Source: a virus. Taken from it: a stretch of 20,028 nucleotides of DNA. Position numbers and translations under genes: made by a program. Positions 1,569 through 16,476 of the stretch are shown here, one piece after another. The stretch is taken from the IMG/VR virus record IMGVR_UViG_3300034062_000826, positions 1 to 20,028 of that record; one strand, given 5' to 3'. How positions within the stretch are numbered: position 1 is the stretch's first letter; every line of letters starts with the position of its first letter. The notes under the pieces were generated by a model. It did not search any database, was not told the origin of the DNA, and worked only from the letters and a program-made list of their open reading frames with translations.

Positions 1569-3110
1569 ATGAAATCGCCCATCCTCGGCTCAAGCTATGT
1601 CGCCCGCAGCATCAACGCTGCGGACGCGCGCATGGTGAACCTCTTTCCAGAGGTTGTGCCAGAAGGTGGGCAGATGCCTGCGTTCCTTAACCGTGCGCCA
1701 GGGCTGAAGCTACAGCAGGCCGTTGGCACCGGGCCGATCCGGGGGCTGTGGGCGCACCAGACGCAAGGCTCTGACTTCTTCGTCGTGTCGGGCAACGAGG
1801 TCTACAAACTGTCTTCGCTGACCGGCACGCCGGTGCTGCTGGGGACAGTCAATGGCACTGGGCCGGTGTCCATCGCCGACAACGGCGACCAGATCGTCTT
1901 CGCGTGCAACCCGGACGCTTTTGTCTACACCGAATCCACCAACACGTTTGTGCAAGTCACTGATCCTGACTTCCCCGGCGCGGTGACGGTCGGCTATCTC
2001 GACGGCTACTTCGTGTTCAACCCACCCAACAGCCAGCGGCTGTACGTCACCAGCCTGTTGGATGGCACGCAGATCGACCCGCTGGATTTCGTCAGCGCCG
2101 AAGGATCGCCGGACGGCATCGTCGGTTTGATCGTCGATCACCGCGAAGTGTGGGTGTTCGGCACCGACAGCACCGAAGTCTGGTACAACGCCGGCACGGC
2201 GGACTTTCCGCTGGCGCGCATTCAAGGCGCGTTCAACGAGATCGGCTGCGTCGCGCCCTATTCCATCGCCAAGCTGGACAACGGCGTGTTCTGGTTGGGA
2301 ACCGACGCCCGCGGCCAAGGCATCGTCTACCGGGCGACTGGCTACGTTGGCCAGCGCGTGTCCACGCACGCGGTTGAGTGGCAAATCCAGCAATATCTGA
2401 ACATGTCCGACGCGGTGGCTTACACTTACCAGCAAGACGGCCACGCCTTTTACGTCCTGAACTTCCCTTCTGCCAACACAACGTGGGTTCTTGATGTCGC
2501 CACCGGGGCTTGGCACGAACGGGCTTATTTCAGCGAAGGCGTGTTCTCGCGTCACCGCGGCAACAGCCAGTGCAACTTCCTCGGCAACATCGTCATCGGC
2601 GATCACCTGAACGCCAACATCTACACCTTTGACCTGACGACCTACGCTGACAACGGCACGCCGCAGAAGTGGCTGCGGTCGTGGCGGGCGCTGCCGACCG
2701 GCCAAAACAACCTGAAGCGCACGGCGCAGCACAACCTCCAGATCATGTTCGAGTCTGGCGTGGGTCTGTCGGGCCTTGATCCATCCGATCCTTTTTTTGG
2801 TTTGCTGTTGACCGAAGGTGGCGACTTTCTTGTTACCGAATCGGGCGACTACATTGAAGTCACTCCGCTGACAGTGCAAGGCGCAAACCCGCAGGTTATG
2901 CTGCGCTGGTCGGACGACGGCGGCCACACATGGTCGAACGAGCATTGGGTGTCTATTGGTAGGATCGGAGGCTACGGCCAGCGCGCCATCTGGCGCCGCC
3001 TGGGCATGACGATGAAGCTGCGCGACCGCGTGTACGAGGTGTCTGGCACTGACCCGGTCAAGCTGGTCATCATTGACGCCGAACTGATGATAAGCGGCAC
3101 CAATGCCTAA
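1569..3110 (+). CDS. P22 gp10-like packaged-DNA stabilisation protein
   Basis: This is a 513-residue protein of the phage-stabilisation family; P22 gp10 is somewhat shorter (about 470). In P22, gp10 forms a hub below gp4 that keeps packaged DNA in the head and carries the needle. Family-like stretches include YVARSINAADARMVNLFPE near the N-terminus, VWVFGTDSTEVWYNAG in the middle (about residues 195-210) and MLRWSDDGGHTWSNEHW near the C-terminus. ATG at 1569 comes one base after the previous stop. Between FESGVGL and GANPQVMLRW lies a locally AT-richer segment with two near-copies of a TExGDxL phrase, probably a small insertion. The last codons overlap the next gene by 8 bases. Confidence 0.85.
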   Translation: MKSPILGSSYVARSINAADARMVNLFPEVVPEGGQMPAFLNRAPGLKLQQAVGTGPIRGLWAHQTQGSDFFVVSGNEVYKLSSLTGTPVLLGTVNGTGPVSIADNGDQIVFACNPDAFVYTESTNTFVQVTDPDFPGAVTVGYLDGYFVFNPPNSQRLYVTSLLDGTQIDPLDFVSAEGSPDGIVGLIVDHREVWVFGTDSTEVWYNAGTADFPLARIQGAFNEIGCVAPYSIAKLDNGVFWLGTDARGQGIVYRATGYVGQRVSTHAVEWQIQQYLNMSDAVAYTYQQDGHAFYVLNFPSANTTWVLDVATGAWHERAYFSEGVFSRHRGNSQCNFLGNIVIGDHLNANIYTFDLTTYADNGTPQKWLRSWRALPTGQNNLKRTAQHNLQIMFESGVGLSGLDPSDPFFGLLLTEGGDFLVTESGDYIEVTPLTVQGANPQVMLRWSDDGGHTWSNEHWVSIGRIGGYGQRAIWRRLGMTMKLRDRVYEVSGTDPVKLVIIDAELMISGTNA

Positions 3111-5116: not shown

Positions 5117-5452
5117 ATGTCTGTTACCGCCAAAGCCCTGATCCCGGCCAAGGTCGCCGAAGATACGCAGTCCACGCAGTACACTGCGACCAACGTGACG
5201 ACGATCATCGATAAGTTCACGGCCACCAACTACGGCGCGTCCGCTGCGTCGATCAGCGTCAACCTGGTGACGGCAGCCGACACCTCTGGCACGCAGAACC
5301 TGATCGTGAAGACCAAGACGCTCCAGCCGTCCGAAACCTACACGTTCCCGGAACTGGTGGGCCACGTCCTGAACCCAAACGGGTTTATCTCGACGCTGGC
5401 GTCGGCGCCGCTGACGATCAACATCCGCGCGTCAGGACGTGAGATTAGCTGA
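5117..5452 (+). CDS. small structural-type protein, 111 residues, function unknown
   Basis: The ATG at 5117 follows an AAGGATAG Shine-Dalgarno-like stretch that begins at the previous stop codon. The protein reads as a single beta-sandwich: YTATNVTTIIDKFTATNYG, SISVNLVTAADTSG, LIVKTKTLQPSETYTFPEL, and an end with TINIRASGREIS. Short proteins of this style occur among phage tail and fibre genes and may be decoration or adaptor proteins. I do not recognise a defined family. The TGA at 5450-5452 shares a base with the ATG of the cupin-SET gene, so the two are probably co-translated. Confidence 0.6.
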   Translation: MSVTAKALIPAKVAEDTQSTQYTATNVTTIIDKFTATNYGASAASISVNLVTAADTSGTQNLIVKTKTLQPSETYTFPELVGHVLNPNGFISTLASAPLTINIRASGREIS

Positions 5453-6306
5453 TGTTGGCGCGCGTTGATGATCTTGTGCCGACCGCGCCGTTTACGGAAG
5501 CGGACGTGGAGAAGTTGGAGACGGCTTTTCTTCAGCATGAACAGGCTGACTGCCCAGTTCATCACCACTTTGGCCCAGGCGTTTACATTCGCGAAGTTGT
5601 GTTGCCAACCGGGGCGTATGTCATCGGGCATCGGCACAAGACCCCGCACATCAACATTATGCTGGAAGGCCGCATCACGCTGATCGGCCAAGACGGCGGC
5701 CACACCGAACTGACCGCGCCCCAGACGTTTGTCAGCGGCGCCGGTCGCAAGATCGCCTACATCCATGAGACGGTGCGCTGGCAGAACGTGTACGCCACCG
5801 ACGAGACAGACGTGGAAACGCTGGAGGCGCAGCTTCTGGACAAAAGCATTGCTTTTGAGGAAGCCCAAGAAGCCAACAGCCTGCTTTTGTCGTATGACAC
5901 CCACGCAGATCAGGACGACTTTGCTGCGGCAATTTCTGAGTTCGGCTTCGACGCCGACACAGTCTGGGCCATATCGGCAGATGAGAGCGACCAGATTCCA
6001 TTACCGCACGGCGGCTACAAGATGATGGTGGCGCCATCGCTGATCCACGGCAAGGGTGTGTTCGCCACCGGCGACATCGCCGCCCATGAGTTGATAGCCC
6101 CGGCTAGGCTCGGCGGAAAACGCACTCCCGCCGGTCGGTTTACCAACCACTCAAAAACGCCGAACGCAATTATGGTCAAAAGCGACAACGGCGATATTTT
6201 TTTGTTCTCAAGCCAGTCGATTTCTGGCTGCAAAGGTAGTAGTGTCGGCGCGGAGATAACCGTGGATTACAGACAGGCGCTATCGCTGTCGGTAGGAGTT
6301 GAATGA
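5452..6306 (+). CDS. cupin-SET domain fusion protein (putative protein-lysine methyltransferase)
   Basis: This is a 284-residue protein with two recognisable domains. Residues about 35-118 form a cupin barrel: GAYVIGHRHKTPHINIMLEG supplies His60, His62 and His66, and IHETVRWQNV supplies His105 as possible metal ligands, while the usual cupin glutamate is not obvious. Residues about 196-276 look like a small SET domain: HGKGVFATGDIA (the GxG cofactor strand), FTNHSKTPNA (the NHSxxPN motif) and GAEITVDYR (the EIxxDY motif). SET proteins transfer methyl groups from SAM to lysines of proteins. An acidic linker (about 119-185) joins the domains. The gene sits among fibre and ejection genes, so the target could be a virion protein or a host protein; the substrate is unknown. 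AT content rises in the last 150 bases. Confidence 0.7.
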   Translation: MLARVDDLVPTAPFTEADVEKLETAFLQHEQADCPVHHHFGPGVYIREVVLPTGAYVIGHRHKTPHINIMLEGRITLIGQDGGHTELTAPQTFVSGAGRKIAYIHETVRWQNVYATDETDVETLEAQLLDKSIAFEEAQEANSLLLSYDTHADQDDFAAAISEFGFDADTVWAISADESDQIPLPHGGYKMMVAPSLIHGKGVFATGDIAAHELIAPARLGGKRTPAGRFTNHSKTPNAIMVKSDNGDIFLFSSQSISGCKGSSVGAEITVDYRQALSLSVGVE

Positions 6307-6307
6307 G

Positions 6308-7117
6308 ATGTCAGCAGTAGCAGCAGCAGTTATTGGCGGCGTAGCGCAGCTGGGTGGTGGTCTGATTGCAGCCGGTGGGGCCAAGAAGGCTGCCAACATT
6401 CAAGCGGAGTCATCGCGGGAAGCGCGGGCAACCGACGAACGGATGCTGGAGCGCCAGATCGGGCTGCAAGAGCCGTTCCGCCAAGCTGGCCTGACCGCGC
6501 AAGAGCAGATCATGCAGTTGCTGGGGATCGGCGGCGACGCATCGGCGGCGGGTTACGGCAGTCTGGCCAAGCCGTTTAGCCAGACTGACTTTGAGCAAGA
6601 CCCAGGTTACGCCTTTCGCCAAGCGGAAGGTATGCGTGCGCTGGAGCGCAGCGCGTCGGCCCGCGGCAATCTGCTGTCAGGTGGCACGCTGCGCGGCATC
6701 CAGCGGTTCGGGCAGGACTTGGCCAGCCAAGAGTATGGCAACGCCTTCAACCGCTACCAGATTGAGCGCAGCGCACGTTTGAACCCGCTTCAATCGCTGA
6801 TGGGTTCTGGCCAGTCGGCGACCAACGTCACGACGGGCAATATCGGTCAGTCGAGCCAGAACCAGCAGGCTAACATTTTGGGCGCCGGGCAGGCCCGCGC
6901 GTCTGGCTACGTCGGTCAGGCTAACGCGCTCAGTGGGGCGTTGGGTAGCATCGGCCAAGCGGCAGCGTCGTACCCTCTTATGCAAGCACAGATGAACTAT
7001 TTCAATTCGTTGCCCCGCGGCGGCGGCGGCGGCAATGTTGGTTCAGTTATTCAACCTTACGCTGCGCCGGGGCTTAACGTGCCGCCCACATATATGCCCG
7101 GATTTGGCCGCGGTTAA
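6308..7117 (+). CDS. P22 gp7-like DNA ejection / internal virion protein
   Basis: This is a 269-residue protein starting at ATG 6308, one base after the SET stop and 9 bases after a GGAG site at 6295-6298; the in-frame TTG at 6299 touches that site and is less likely. The N-terminus is a hydrophobic, Gly/Ala-rich stretch (AVIGGVAQLGGGLIAAGGA) that may insert in membrane. The middle has the phrase DPGYAFRQAEGMRALERSA followed by GNLLSGGTLRGIQRFGQDLA, which is typical of a widespread phage DNA-transfer family. The C-terminus is Gln/Gly/Ala-rich with a run of Gly. Such proteins are packed in the head and ejected to form a channel across the cell envelope. It is followed by two larger ejection-type genes, as gp7 is followed by gp20 and gp16 in P22. 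Confidence 0.75.
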   Translation: MSAVAAAVIGGVAQLGGGLIAAGGAKKAANIQAESSREARATDERMLERQIGLQEPFRQAGLTAQEQIMQLLGIGGDASAAGYGSLAKPFSQTDFEQDPGYAFRQAEGMRALERSASARGNLLSGGTLRGIQRFGQDLASQEYGNAFNRYQIERSARLNPLQSLMGSGQSATNVTTGNIGQSSQNQQANILGAGQARASGYVGQANALSGALGSIGQAAASYPLMQAQMNYFNSLPRGGGGGNVGSVIQPYAAPGLNVPPTYMPGFGRG

Positions 7118-13798: not shown

Positions 13799-15092
13799 TC
13801 TTCAACTCCTTCATCGCTATGTCTGACACGGCACGCTTTTCGTGAAGGGCCGCCCAGATGCGTTCGTCAATCGTTTTTTCGGTCAGCATCACGTAGACCC
13901 ACACCGCATGGCGCTGCCCACCGCGGTGCAGGCGTCCGACTGTCTGCTCGTACAACTCCAGCGACCACGGCAGCGACACGAACACCATGTGGCAGCCGCC
14001 GTGCTGAAGGTTCAGGCCGTGGCCTGCGGACTTCGGATGCACCAGCAGCAGTTCGACCTTGCCGGCGTTCCACCGCTCAATCACGTCCTTGTCCTCTATG
14101 GTCTGGGCGTGCGGGAAACGCCGGCGCAGTTCGGCCAGTTCCTCTTGGTAGTTGTACACCACGATGGTGTTGGCGCGCTGGTTCTCATCCAGCAGTTCCT
14201 CCAGCCGGTCAAACTTGTGGCTGCTGAACCAATGCACCGGCAGCGGCCCCTCGCGGTTGTAGACGAACCCCGACGCCATCTGTTGCAGCTTGGTCGTCAC
14301 CGACGCGGCGTTCTGGGCGATGACGCGGTCGTCGCCGAACTTGACGACGTAGTCGCGCTTCATCTTCTCATACGGCCCGCGATCCGCAAGCTGAACCCGC
14401 GTCTCAACGACATGGCACGGCGGCAGCTTGTCCTTGTAGTCGCCTGGGTCAAGCACGAACGTCGCCGGCTTGATCCGTTCCATCACCTGTTCCAGCGCGC
14501 CGGGTGCCGGCGTCCACTGACCAAACTCGCGGTTGACGCAGTGGAAGTACTGCTGGAGGAACGCGCCCTTGGCGCGGCCCAGCAAGCCTTGGTCAATGAT
14601 CTTGCACTGGCCAAACACATCCTCAAGGCCGTTCGACGTGAACGAGCCTGTCAATCCCCACCGTATCGCCATCGTAGACATAAGTTTCTCCAGTGTTTTG
14701 AACCGCTTCCCGCTGGGGTTCTTCAGCCGCGTCAGTTCGTCGAACACGACGCCGTCAAAACCTGACAAATCCTCTAGCTTATCAAGGTTGTCGTAGTTGA
14801 TCACGACCACAGGCGCGGCGCTGGCCAACGCCGCTTTACGCTGCGCCGGGGTGCCGACCGCCAGCGCCGGCGTGATGTTAGACCACTTCGGGGCTTCGAC
14901 CGGCCACACGTCCGTGCAGACGCGCTTGGGGGCAACCACCAGCCACCGCTTGACCAAGCCGTCGTTCAGCATCGCCTGCATGGCTGTCAGCGTGATCGCG
15001 GTCTTGCCAGCGCCCACCGGCGCCAAGATCATCGCCCGGTCGCGCTCGTACAGGAAGTCGGCGGCGTCGTCCTGGTAGGGGCGCAGTCTCAC
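13785..15092 (-). CDS. SNF2-like superfamily 2 DNA helicase/translocase
   Basis: This 435-residue protein has the SF2 motifs in order: RPYQ (4-7), Walker A APVGAGKT (24-31), FDELT (117-121, the DEAH-box position), LTGSF (147-151), and in the second RecA-like lobe HPKSAGHGLNLQ and QTVGRLHRGGQ with the arginine fingers. It would use ATP to move along double-stranded DNA and may open or remodel replication or recombination intermediates. Compact SNF2-like helicases of this kind are frequent in phages and often sit near VRR-NUC nucleases, as here. GTG 15092 overlaps the methyltransferase stop (GTGA), indicating coupled translation. Confidence 0.88.
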   Translation of the reverse strand: MRLRPYQDDAADFLYERDRAMILAPVGAGKTAITLTAMQAMLNDGLVKRWLVVAPKRVCTDVWPVEAPKWSNITPALAVGTPAQRKAALASAAPVVVINYDNLDKLEDLSGFDGVVFDELTRLKNPSGKRFKTLEKLMSTMAIRWGLTGSFTSNGLEDVFGQCKIIDQGLLGRAKGAFLQQYFHCVNREFGQWTPAPGALEQVMERIKPATFVLDPGDYKDKLPPCHVVETRVQLADRGPYEKMKRDYVVKFGDDRVIAQNAASVTTKLQQMASGFVYNREGPLPVHWFSSHKFDRLEELLDENQRANTIVVYNYQEELAELRRRFPHAQTIEDKDVIERWNAGKVELLLVHPKSAGHGLNLQHGGCHMVFVSLPWSLELYEQTVGRLHRGGQRHAVWVYVMLTEKTIDERIWAALHEKRAVSDIAMKELKNEQG

Positions 15093-16204
15093 GGCGCGCA
15101 GTCCATCACAGCCGCTACGAACTGCGTTGCCGTTTCAGCGTCAAGGCCGTTTCCGTAGGCGCGCAGTCGTCCCACGCGGCTGGCAGCCGCATCAGCCAGC
15201 GGGAATGTGCCGGGTTCAACCGGCCTCCACTTGTCATCCCGGCAGTAGAGCCAGTCAGCAGCGTCCCGTCCCAGCATAGGCGCATGGGGCCGGTCGTCGC
15301 CATTTCCGCCAGCCCCCGCACAATCCCACCCATCAGCGGTTCGCCCTTCCGGTCGCCGCTTCTGCTGGACTGCCCGCCCGTCATGGTGTTCGGCGTCGGC
15401 CAGCCCGCTAACACTGCTCCGTGGTTCAGCGTAATATTCTTCGTTGCAAAGTTTTGAGATGGTTGGCGAACGCTGTCGTTGGTGGTCGGCGTCGGCCAGC
15501 CCGCCAGATAGGTCGCTGTTGATGGCAGATCGTCCAGCCGTCCCTTCCTCGCAATTTCCGCTTCGCAGCCTTCCGCCGTCCTCGACCCCTTGTCGCCGTC
15601 CGTCGAGCGGGGTGTTGGCCAGCCCGCTAGTTCCACTGCGTTCGGCAGTTCCGACACTTTGTGCGCGGCTTTGCCCGCCCGTCCTCTGGCGTCCGCTGCC
15701 AACGGTGTCGGCCACCCCCGTGAAATAAAGTCGCTGCCGGATGTGCGCGCCGCCGAACCCCGCAGCGCACAAATCTGCCGCCCCAAAGGCGTAGCCCGCG
15801 CTTTCCATGTCAGTTGATACAAGATCGAGCCAATCGAGCGCGCTTGCAACCTGTTCGCCAAGGACGATTGCAGGGTGGCACTGGCGGATGAGATTGAACC
15901 AGGTGGGCCAGAGATGGCGCTCGTCAGCGAAGCCTTCCTGCTTGCCTGCGGCGCTAAACGGCTGGCAAGGGCAACTGCCCGTCCAGACGGGCCGGTCGTC
16001 GGCCCATCCGGCTTGGCGCAGGGCGTGGCCCCAGACGCCGATTCCTGCGAAGAAGTGACACTGGTCGAAACCAAGAAGGTCATCAGGTTGAATTTCTGTG
16101 ATACTGCGCTCATCAACTTCACCTTTCGCCAAGTGTCCTGCCGCGATCAGGTTCCTGAGCCATTGCGCGGCGTATGGGTCTATCTCATTGTAGTATACTG
16201 TCAT
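15089..16204 (-). CDS. DNA cytosine-C5 methyltransferase
   Basis: This 371-residue enzyme would transfer methyl from SAM to C5 of cytosine. Motif I is HFFAGIGVWGHALRQAG (50-66). Motif IV is GSCPCQPFSAAG (76-87), with Cys80 as nucleophile. Motif VI is LGEQV (115-119), where the usual ENV is EQV. Motif VIII is IRQRLYF (155-161), and motifs IX/X lie near RVGRLRAYGNGLDAETA (343-359). Between VIII and IX, where target recognition sits, are four repeats: VADT, LANT, LADAD and LADAE (164-272). The open frame reaches 16345, but ATG 16204 is chosen because it overlaps the VRR-NUC stop (ATGA) and leaves a family-like N-terminus. It probably protects phage DNA from host restriction. A long ORF in another frame lies inside it. 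Confidence 0.88.
   Translation of the reverse strand: MTVYYNEIDPYAAQWLRNLIAAGHLAKGEVDERSITEIQPDDLLGFDQCHFFAGIGVWGHALRQAGWADDRPVWTGSCPCQPFSAAGKQEGFADERHLWPTWFNLIRQCHPAIVLGEQVASALDWLDLVSTDMESAGYAFGAADLCAAGFGGAHIRQRLYFTGVADTVGSGRQRTGGQSRAQSVGTAERSGTSGLANTPLDGRRQGVEDGGRLRSGNCEEGTAGRSAINSDLSGGLADADHQRQRSPTISKLCNEEYYAEPRSSVSGLADAEHHDGRAVQQKRRPEGRTADGWDCAGAGGNGDDRPHAPMLGRDAADWLYCRDDKWRPVEPGTFPLADAAASRVGRLRAYGNGLDAETATQFVAAVMDCAP
15115..16113 (-). CDS. overlapping out-of-frame ORF inside the methyltransferase gene, GWPTP-repeat protein (tentative)
   Basis: On the same strand as the methyltransferase but in another frame, about 1 kb is open without a stop. It could start at ATG 16113, with AAAGG 8 bases upstream at 16126-16122, or at GTG 16122; TAG is at 15115-15117. 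Numbered from the GTG, the 335-residue product has SILYQLTWKARATPLGRQIC (99-118), four GWPTP repeats (136, 167, 208, 240) and a distinctive end, RLNPAHSRWLMRLPAAWDDC (301-320). From memory, sequences with GWPTP repeats and an 'NPxxSRWLMGxP' end are common in phage annotations; I cannot check this here. It may be a real overprinted gene or a by-product of repeats under selection in the methyltransferase frame. Confidence 0.35.
   Translation of the reverse strand: MSAVSQKFNLMTFLVSTSVTSSQESASGATPCAKPDGPTTGPSGRAVALASRLAPQASRKASLTSAISGPPGSISSASATLQSSLANRLQARSIGSILYQLTWKARATPLGRQICALRGSAARTSGSDFISRGWPTPLAADARGRAGKAAHKVSELPNAVELAGWPTPRSTDGDKGSRTAEGCEAEIARKGRLDDLPSTATYLAGWPTPTTNDSVRQPSQNFATKNITLNHGAVLAGWPTPNTMTGGQSSRSGDRKGEPLMGGIVRGLAEMATTGPMRLCWDGTLLTGSTAGMTSGGRLNPAHSRWLMRLPAAWDDCAPTETALTLKRQRSS
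15392..15720 (-). repeat. four dispersed copies of a 17-base repeat in the methyltransferase recognition region
   Basis: On the + strand, GGCGTCGGCCAGCCCGC occurs exactly at 15392-15408 and 15488-15504. Close variants are at 15611-15627 (GGTGTTGGCCAGCCCGC) and 15704-15720 (GGTGTCGGCCACCCCCG). The start-to-start distances are 96, 123 and 93, all multiples of three, so each copy keeps the same phase. Read on the minus strand it gives GLADA-type residues in the methyltransferase frame and GWPTP in the alternative frame. The sequence between copies is not repeated. Confidence 0.9.
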
Positions 16205-16476
16205 TTTATTTTCCTTTCCCAATCGTCCACGTCCTCTTTCGACCACAGCAATGCGTAATTCTGGTTCATCTCGGCCATGTTTTCGGCAAATATCTCTTGC
16301 AGCGGCGACAGCCGCCCGCCGGGCTTCTTCATTTCCACGAACCACGTCTGGCCGTTCGGCAGGCAGGCGATGCGGTCAGCCACGCCCCGCTGCGTCACGC
16401 TGCGGAACTTGTAACTGTACCCGCCCAGCGCCTTCACGCGCTTCACGAAGTAGGCTTCGATCTCTTTCTCGGTCAT
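16201..16476 (-). CDS. VRR-NUC domain nuclease
   Basis: This 91-residue stand-alone VRR-NUC protein belongs to the PD-(D/E)XK nuclease fold. Key residues visible are Glu5 in the first helix, GVADRI (31-36, Asp34), VEMKKPGG (47-54; Glu48 and Lys50 form the ExK core) and Gln60 in SPLQ. In phages such proteins act as structure-specific or Holliday-junction-type nucleases and are often encoded next to SNF2-like helicases. Here the methyltransferase gene lies between the two. ATG 16476 has AGGAT 6 bases upstream. The stop overlaps the methyltransferase ATG. It is the first gene after the terminator, so it probably opens its own transcription unit. Confidence 0.85.
   Translation of the reverse strand: MTEKEIEAYFVKRVKALGGYSYKFRSVTQRGVADRIACLPNGQTWFVEMKKPGGRLSPLQEIFAENMAEMNQNYALLWSKEDVDDWERKIK

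Follow-up and report, generated by a model that had tools for sequence, protein, structure and literature searches.

The window analysed here, a whole stretch of 20,028 nucleotides from IMG/VR virus record IMGVR_UViG_3300034062_000826, was found to encode a protein in which a cupin domain is joined through a helical linker to a minimal SET domain, directly before a P22-gp7-like DNA-ejection gene (Table 1). The protein is best explained, with a probability of about 0.5, as a two-domain podophage morphogenesis protein consisting of a cupin core and an active SET lysine methyltransferase that would act on ejection or tail proteins. The enzyme fold is a known one, while the architecture and the genomic setting are new, and the databases hold the family without a function. 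Protein-lysine methylation by SET domains has hardly been studied in bacterial viruses, and it is tied here to the poorly understood DNA-ejection genes of podophages; if the proposed reading is correct, a post-translational step would be added to the assembly or infection of short-tailed phages.

Table 1. Features of the cupin-SET region (window positions, 5' to 3')
Feature	Position	Strand	Evidence
Tail hub / head closure Hc3 (P22 gp10-like), upstream landmark	1569..3110	+	phrog_578 E 4.5e-127
111-aa gene directly upstream of cupin-SET, no known family	5117..5452	+	weak phrog_20100
Cupin-linker-SET protein gene, 284 aa	5452..6306	+	ORF; PHROG 34170 E 8.4e-82, residues 15-278
Cupin (double-stranded beta-helix) domain, about residues 15-145	5494..5886	+	phrog_12032 E 4.8e-34, phrog_24280 E 3.5e-29; AF2 strands 36-114; Foldseek cupins
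Helical linker, about residues 146-184	5887..6003	+	AF2 helices 121-128, 133-163, 168-176
Minimal SET domain, residues 185-284	6004..6303	+	Pfam SET 26.4 bits; AF2 pLDDT 91.2; Foldseek MLL1, vSET
SET-N motif HGKGVFAT (SAM-binding GxG), residues 199-206	6046..6069	+	G200, G202 27/27
KRTPAGRFTNHSKTPNA, residues 223-239, SET-C motif 1 (NHxxxPN, SAM binding)	6118..6168	+	R224, T225, G228, R229, N232, H233, P237 27/27
EITVDYR, residues 268-274, SET-C motif 2, candidate catalytic Tyr273	6253..6273	+	E268, T270, D272, Y273 27/27
P22-gp7-like DNA-ejection protein gene, ATG just past cupin-SET stop	6308..7117	+	phrog_598 E 9.5e-36

A fusion of cupin and SET domains had been proposed in an earlier note on this DNA, and was borne out by a Pfam SET match above the cut-off and by an AlphaFold2 (AF2) model in which both folds were recognised by Foldseek. 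The model of the whole protein (input of 30 sequences from the window and viral contigs) reached a pLDDT of 88.5 and a pTM of 0.85; its N-terminal part matched cupins, and its C-terminal part the SET domains of MLL1 or PRC2. PHROG 34170, of unknown function, spans nearly the whole protein, while PHROGs 12032 and 24280 cover the first half only. The SET hallmarks read from the letters (HGKGVFAT, NHSKTPNA at residues 232-239, and EITVDYR) were all present in the ORF. The helical linker travels with the SET domain, a similar linker being found by sequence comparison in Pseudoalteromonas phage PH1 as well as in the split and reversed arrangements described below.

The window protein exceeded the Pfam SET (PF00856) cut-off of 22.4 bits with a single-sequence E-value of 1e-5, and 28 of 30 family members matched the same profile (best E 1.3e-9). 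S196 and every residue scored 27/27 in Table 1 were invariant among 27 diverse members, so that the motifs persist in homologues; in distant forms the Asp before the Tyr is sometimes Asn, and the Tyr is kept. The GxG, NHxxxPN and ExTxDY positions correspond to the motifs with which SET enzymes bind SAM and carry out catalysis. Values of dN/dS in the SET domain ranged from 0.03 to 0.12 in unsaturated close pairs, showing purifying selection. When the SET domain was modelled separately, the predicted fold was that of a SET domain: all 50 Foldseek matches listed were SET lysine methyltransferases, including vSET of PBCV-1, and the match extended over the whole of the modelled domain. The domain is most likely a catalytically competent SAM-dependent protein-lysine methyltransferase. 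The modest single-sequence E-value might be taken to indicate chance resemblance or an annotation artefact, but the probability of this is negligible in view of the family-wide Pfam matches, the confident fold match and the conserved motifs. Such an origin is excluded by the invariant motif residues together with the presence of both halves in 54 of the 55 whole-protein relatives obtained in one scan of IMG/VR (the exception, L056, being cupin-only).

The best Foldseek matches, the SET domains of MLL1 and PRC2 (about 22% identity, same motifs), belong to chromatin enzymes of eukaryotes that have SET-I and post-SET elements, whereas the phage domain lacks the post-SET elements and has almost no SET-I, with only about a dozen residues between SET-N and the NH motif. 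These elements are not universal among SET domains and their absence is not decisive, but with SET-I almost missing, substrate binding must differ from that of the studied enzymes. The vSET of chlorella virus PBCV-1 (PDB 3kma), a histone methyltransferase that a eukaryotic virus encodes as a free-standing protein, is likewise a minimal viral SET domain, with a TM-score of 0.66/0.65 to the SET model. It has no cupin, and a further difference is the family-specific GCxGG insert that most of the phage family carries before ExTxDY (missing in PH1). The reduced SET-I is also what might be seen if the domain were a non-catalytic beta-clip that gave a tail or assembly protein a structural or binding part, and the location of the gene among structural genes and the structural use of beta-clip folds elsewhere point the same way. 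This explanation is nevertheless quite unlikely, as the invariant residues are those of cofactor binding and catalysis and not those that a purely structural role would keep.

By sequence, the cupin half matched Cupin_2 below threshold (Pfam E 0.003); by structure it was clear, the AF2 model having the double-stranded beta-helix fold and Foldseek returning cupins. The earlier note had described a His-rich cupin site made up of H60, H62, H66 and H105. All four histidines exist, and H60 (26/27) and H66 (24/27) are conserved, but H62 (5/27, mostly Gln in the other members) and H105 (7/27) are not, and the motif 1 and 2 metal ligands, expected to be conserved in metal-dependent cupins only, were not kept as a set across the 27 members. 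The supposed metal site is therefore not a feature of the family; a metal-enzyme cupin was rejected on this ground, and the idea of a metal- or sugar-binding type of cupin is weakened. The relatives of the cupin fall in PHROGs named short tail fiber (12032) and tail fiber adhesin (24280), and a Ralstonia phage cupin has been annotated as a short tail fibre/adhesin without experiment (PMC8703784). Taken at face value, these names would make the cupin a short tail fibre or adhesin that binds receptors, with the SET domain modifying or binding a target at the cell surface. We regard this as improbable, since the names come from annotation, no SAM is to be expected in the extracellular space, and conservation of the cupin core is high (67% mean column identity), unlike that of typical receptor-binding tips.

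The placement of the gene among virion genes, also suggested earlier, was confirmed by PHROG matches to its neighbours and by its relatives. A gp7-like ejection gene lay directly after the cupin in 258 of 287 loci, 12 of the others being at contig ends and 17 having no detected homologue. Upstream, small genes separate the Hc3/gp10 hub from the cupin-SET gene, and a homologue of the 111-aa gene occupied the corresponding position in 85 of 280 cupin loci. In several relatives the end of the gene overlaps the start of the ejection gene (ATGTCAGCAGTAG), which suggests translational coupling; in the window the ATG follows almost immediately past the stop. A Cys motif that recurs at the C-terminus (CQQ, CQE, CHG) was discarded, as it arises when the start of the next gene, ATGTCAGCAGTAG, is read out of frame. 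Cupin-only phages use the same slot before the gp7-like gene, among them Vibrio phage VvAW1 and Shewanella phage X14 (PHROGs 12032 and 24280), whose cupins lack SET and share about 28-42% identity with the window protein over the cupin only. In one T7-like genome the cupin has tail tubular protein B on one side and internal virion proteins on the other. The same full-length architecture and gene position were found in members of PHROG 34170, among them gp30 of Rhodoferax phage P26218 and a protein of Caudoviricetes sp. MW202744 (about 42-50% identity to the window protein), records that come with no functional analysis, the GenBank MW202744 member being named 'pbcV-1 histone H3-lys 27 methyltransferase structure'.

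In tblastn searches, eight phage records covered at least 80% of the query, including Rhodoferax phage P26218, Pseudoalteromonas phage PH1 and Manatee Spring podoviruses, and about 48 records matched the cupin half only. Profile searches of IMG/VR gave at least 509 confirmed places for the SET domain and 419 for the cupin. The counts of neighbouring genes and domain arrangements given here refer to loci and not to species, some loci being the same contig more than once. The family is common in environmental viromes, with P26218 and PH1 as cultured members. The earlier statement that SET domains are uncommon in bacterial viruses has to be tempered in view of the IMG/VR matches, even though this module is found in few cultured phages. 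In GTDB a close relative was found on one contig only, from a MAG, and searches of NCBIfam, PADLOC (defence systems) and PDB sequences returned nothing useful. One apparent split form (L052) was a frameshifted copy of the normal fusion, and four viral rows without SET (L159, L180, L207 and L209) were rejected as losses, being truncated at contig or locus ends.

The cupin is the constant part before the P22-gp7-like gene in podophages, with or without SET, and SET is its mobile partner. Among ORFs with both domains, the cupin-SET order dominated (269), and two had the reversed SET-cupin order before the ejection gene (L260:5878-6741 and L266:2950-3816). The two domains were also found as neighbouring genes, with the cupin gene first in L245 and L247 and the SET gene first in L263. 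The ejection gene came next in L247, L260, L263 and L266, and was present wherever the contig reached that far. That the two domains keep being paired, in either order or as adjacent genes, gives good grounds to conclude that they work together. In L056, on the other hand, SET was cleanly lost within the fused clade and the cupin kept, so SET is not essential everywhere. In the cupin tree the PH1 cupin grouped with those of SET-less Vibrio and Shewanella phages, and nine architecture changes were counted against a minimum of three, an approximate figure as the tree is short (118 columns) and many of its forks are open. A SET domain of the same type without cupin was observed in a different viral genome, with a portal-like gene on one side and scaffold- and capsid-like genes on the other (L280:5063-5635), and Pelagibacter phage Kolga EXVC016S has a distant SET-like gene that stands alone, away from the structural slot (L218:5980-6288).

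Under the proposed morphogenetic role, the cupin would dock on nascent ejection or tail proteins that share its transcript, the tethered SET domain would methylate lysines on them, and methylation would tune the packing or release of the ejection proteins; the cupin-SET protein itself would be part of the virion or of an assembly intermediate. Given the genomic linkage, proteins of phage morphogenesis or ejection are the probable target, and methylation during assembly is favoured in particular, since the gene keeps a fixed place beside theirs and is coupled with them. The intact catalytic motifs would also suit an active methyltransferase, phage-delivered or phage-made, that modifies host proteins (nucleoid, translation or envelope) and not those of the phage. 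Eukaryotic SET relatives methylate histones, and some phages, such as Kolga, have a SET-like gene by itself elsewhere than in the structural slot. A host target is nonetheless unlikely, as the gene stays with late structural genes, abutting or overlapping the ejection gene, and its SET domain is tied to a cupin that also occupies that slot by itself, without SET. A conserved lysine specific to SET-bearing phages was sought in the gp7-like ejection protein, and none was found: the only lysine column that exceeded 40% was common to SET-less phages too. The substrate may therefore be another protein or an unaligned region.

The same slot may also hold other protein-modifying enzymes. In phage vB_PaeM-G11 the gene before the ejection protein, ORF39, is annotated as a GNAT acetyltransferase (PMC10142737), and annotated acetyltransferases lie at or near the slot in Pseudomonas phage PfAn1 (L225:2423-2887) and Xanthomonas phage PBR31 (L221:1693-2064). 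These GNATs resemble the cupin-SET protein in being putative protein-modifying enzymes before the first ejection protein (PfAn1, with a Pfam score below the cut-off, and ORF39), but their fold and chemistry are unrelated to SET. The slot products T7 gp13 and P22 gp14 were considered as GNATs and rejected, gp13 giving a non-significant match only (E 0.39) and gp14 none. Taken together, the annotated cases suggest that the slot recruits protein-modifying enzymes. It is possible, if doubtful, that podophages methylate lysines of their own ejection proteins to switch a step in morphogenesis, with interchangeable modifying enzymes (SET on a cupin carrier, GNATs elsewhere) acting on the DNA-ejection machine from this position. 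As a lead, gp13 goes unmentioned in a cryo-EM study of T7 that resolved gp14, gp15, gp16, gp6.7 and gp7.3 in the virion (PMC11784390), which would fit an assembly factor.

Searches of the open-access literature gave no account of a cupin-SET fusion or of the family; one phage paper merely listed a SET ORF, and 'SET domain' matches in the structural papers examined referred to Ig 'I-set' or 'C2-set'. Elsewhere in the window, on the minus strand, a 418-aa ORF with repeated GLAD/GLAN motifs (15089-16345) appears cytosine-methyltransferase-like, a name given from its letters alone, and is overlapped almost entirely, in another frame of the same strand, by a 335-aa ORF with repeated GWPTP motifs (15115-16122).
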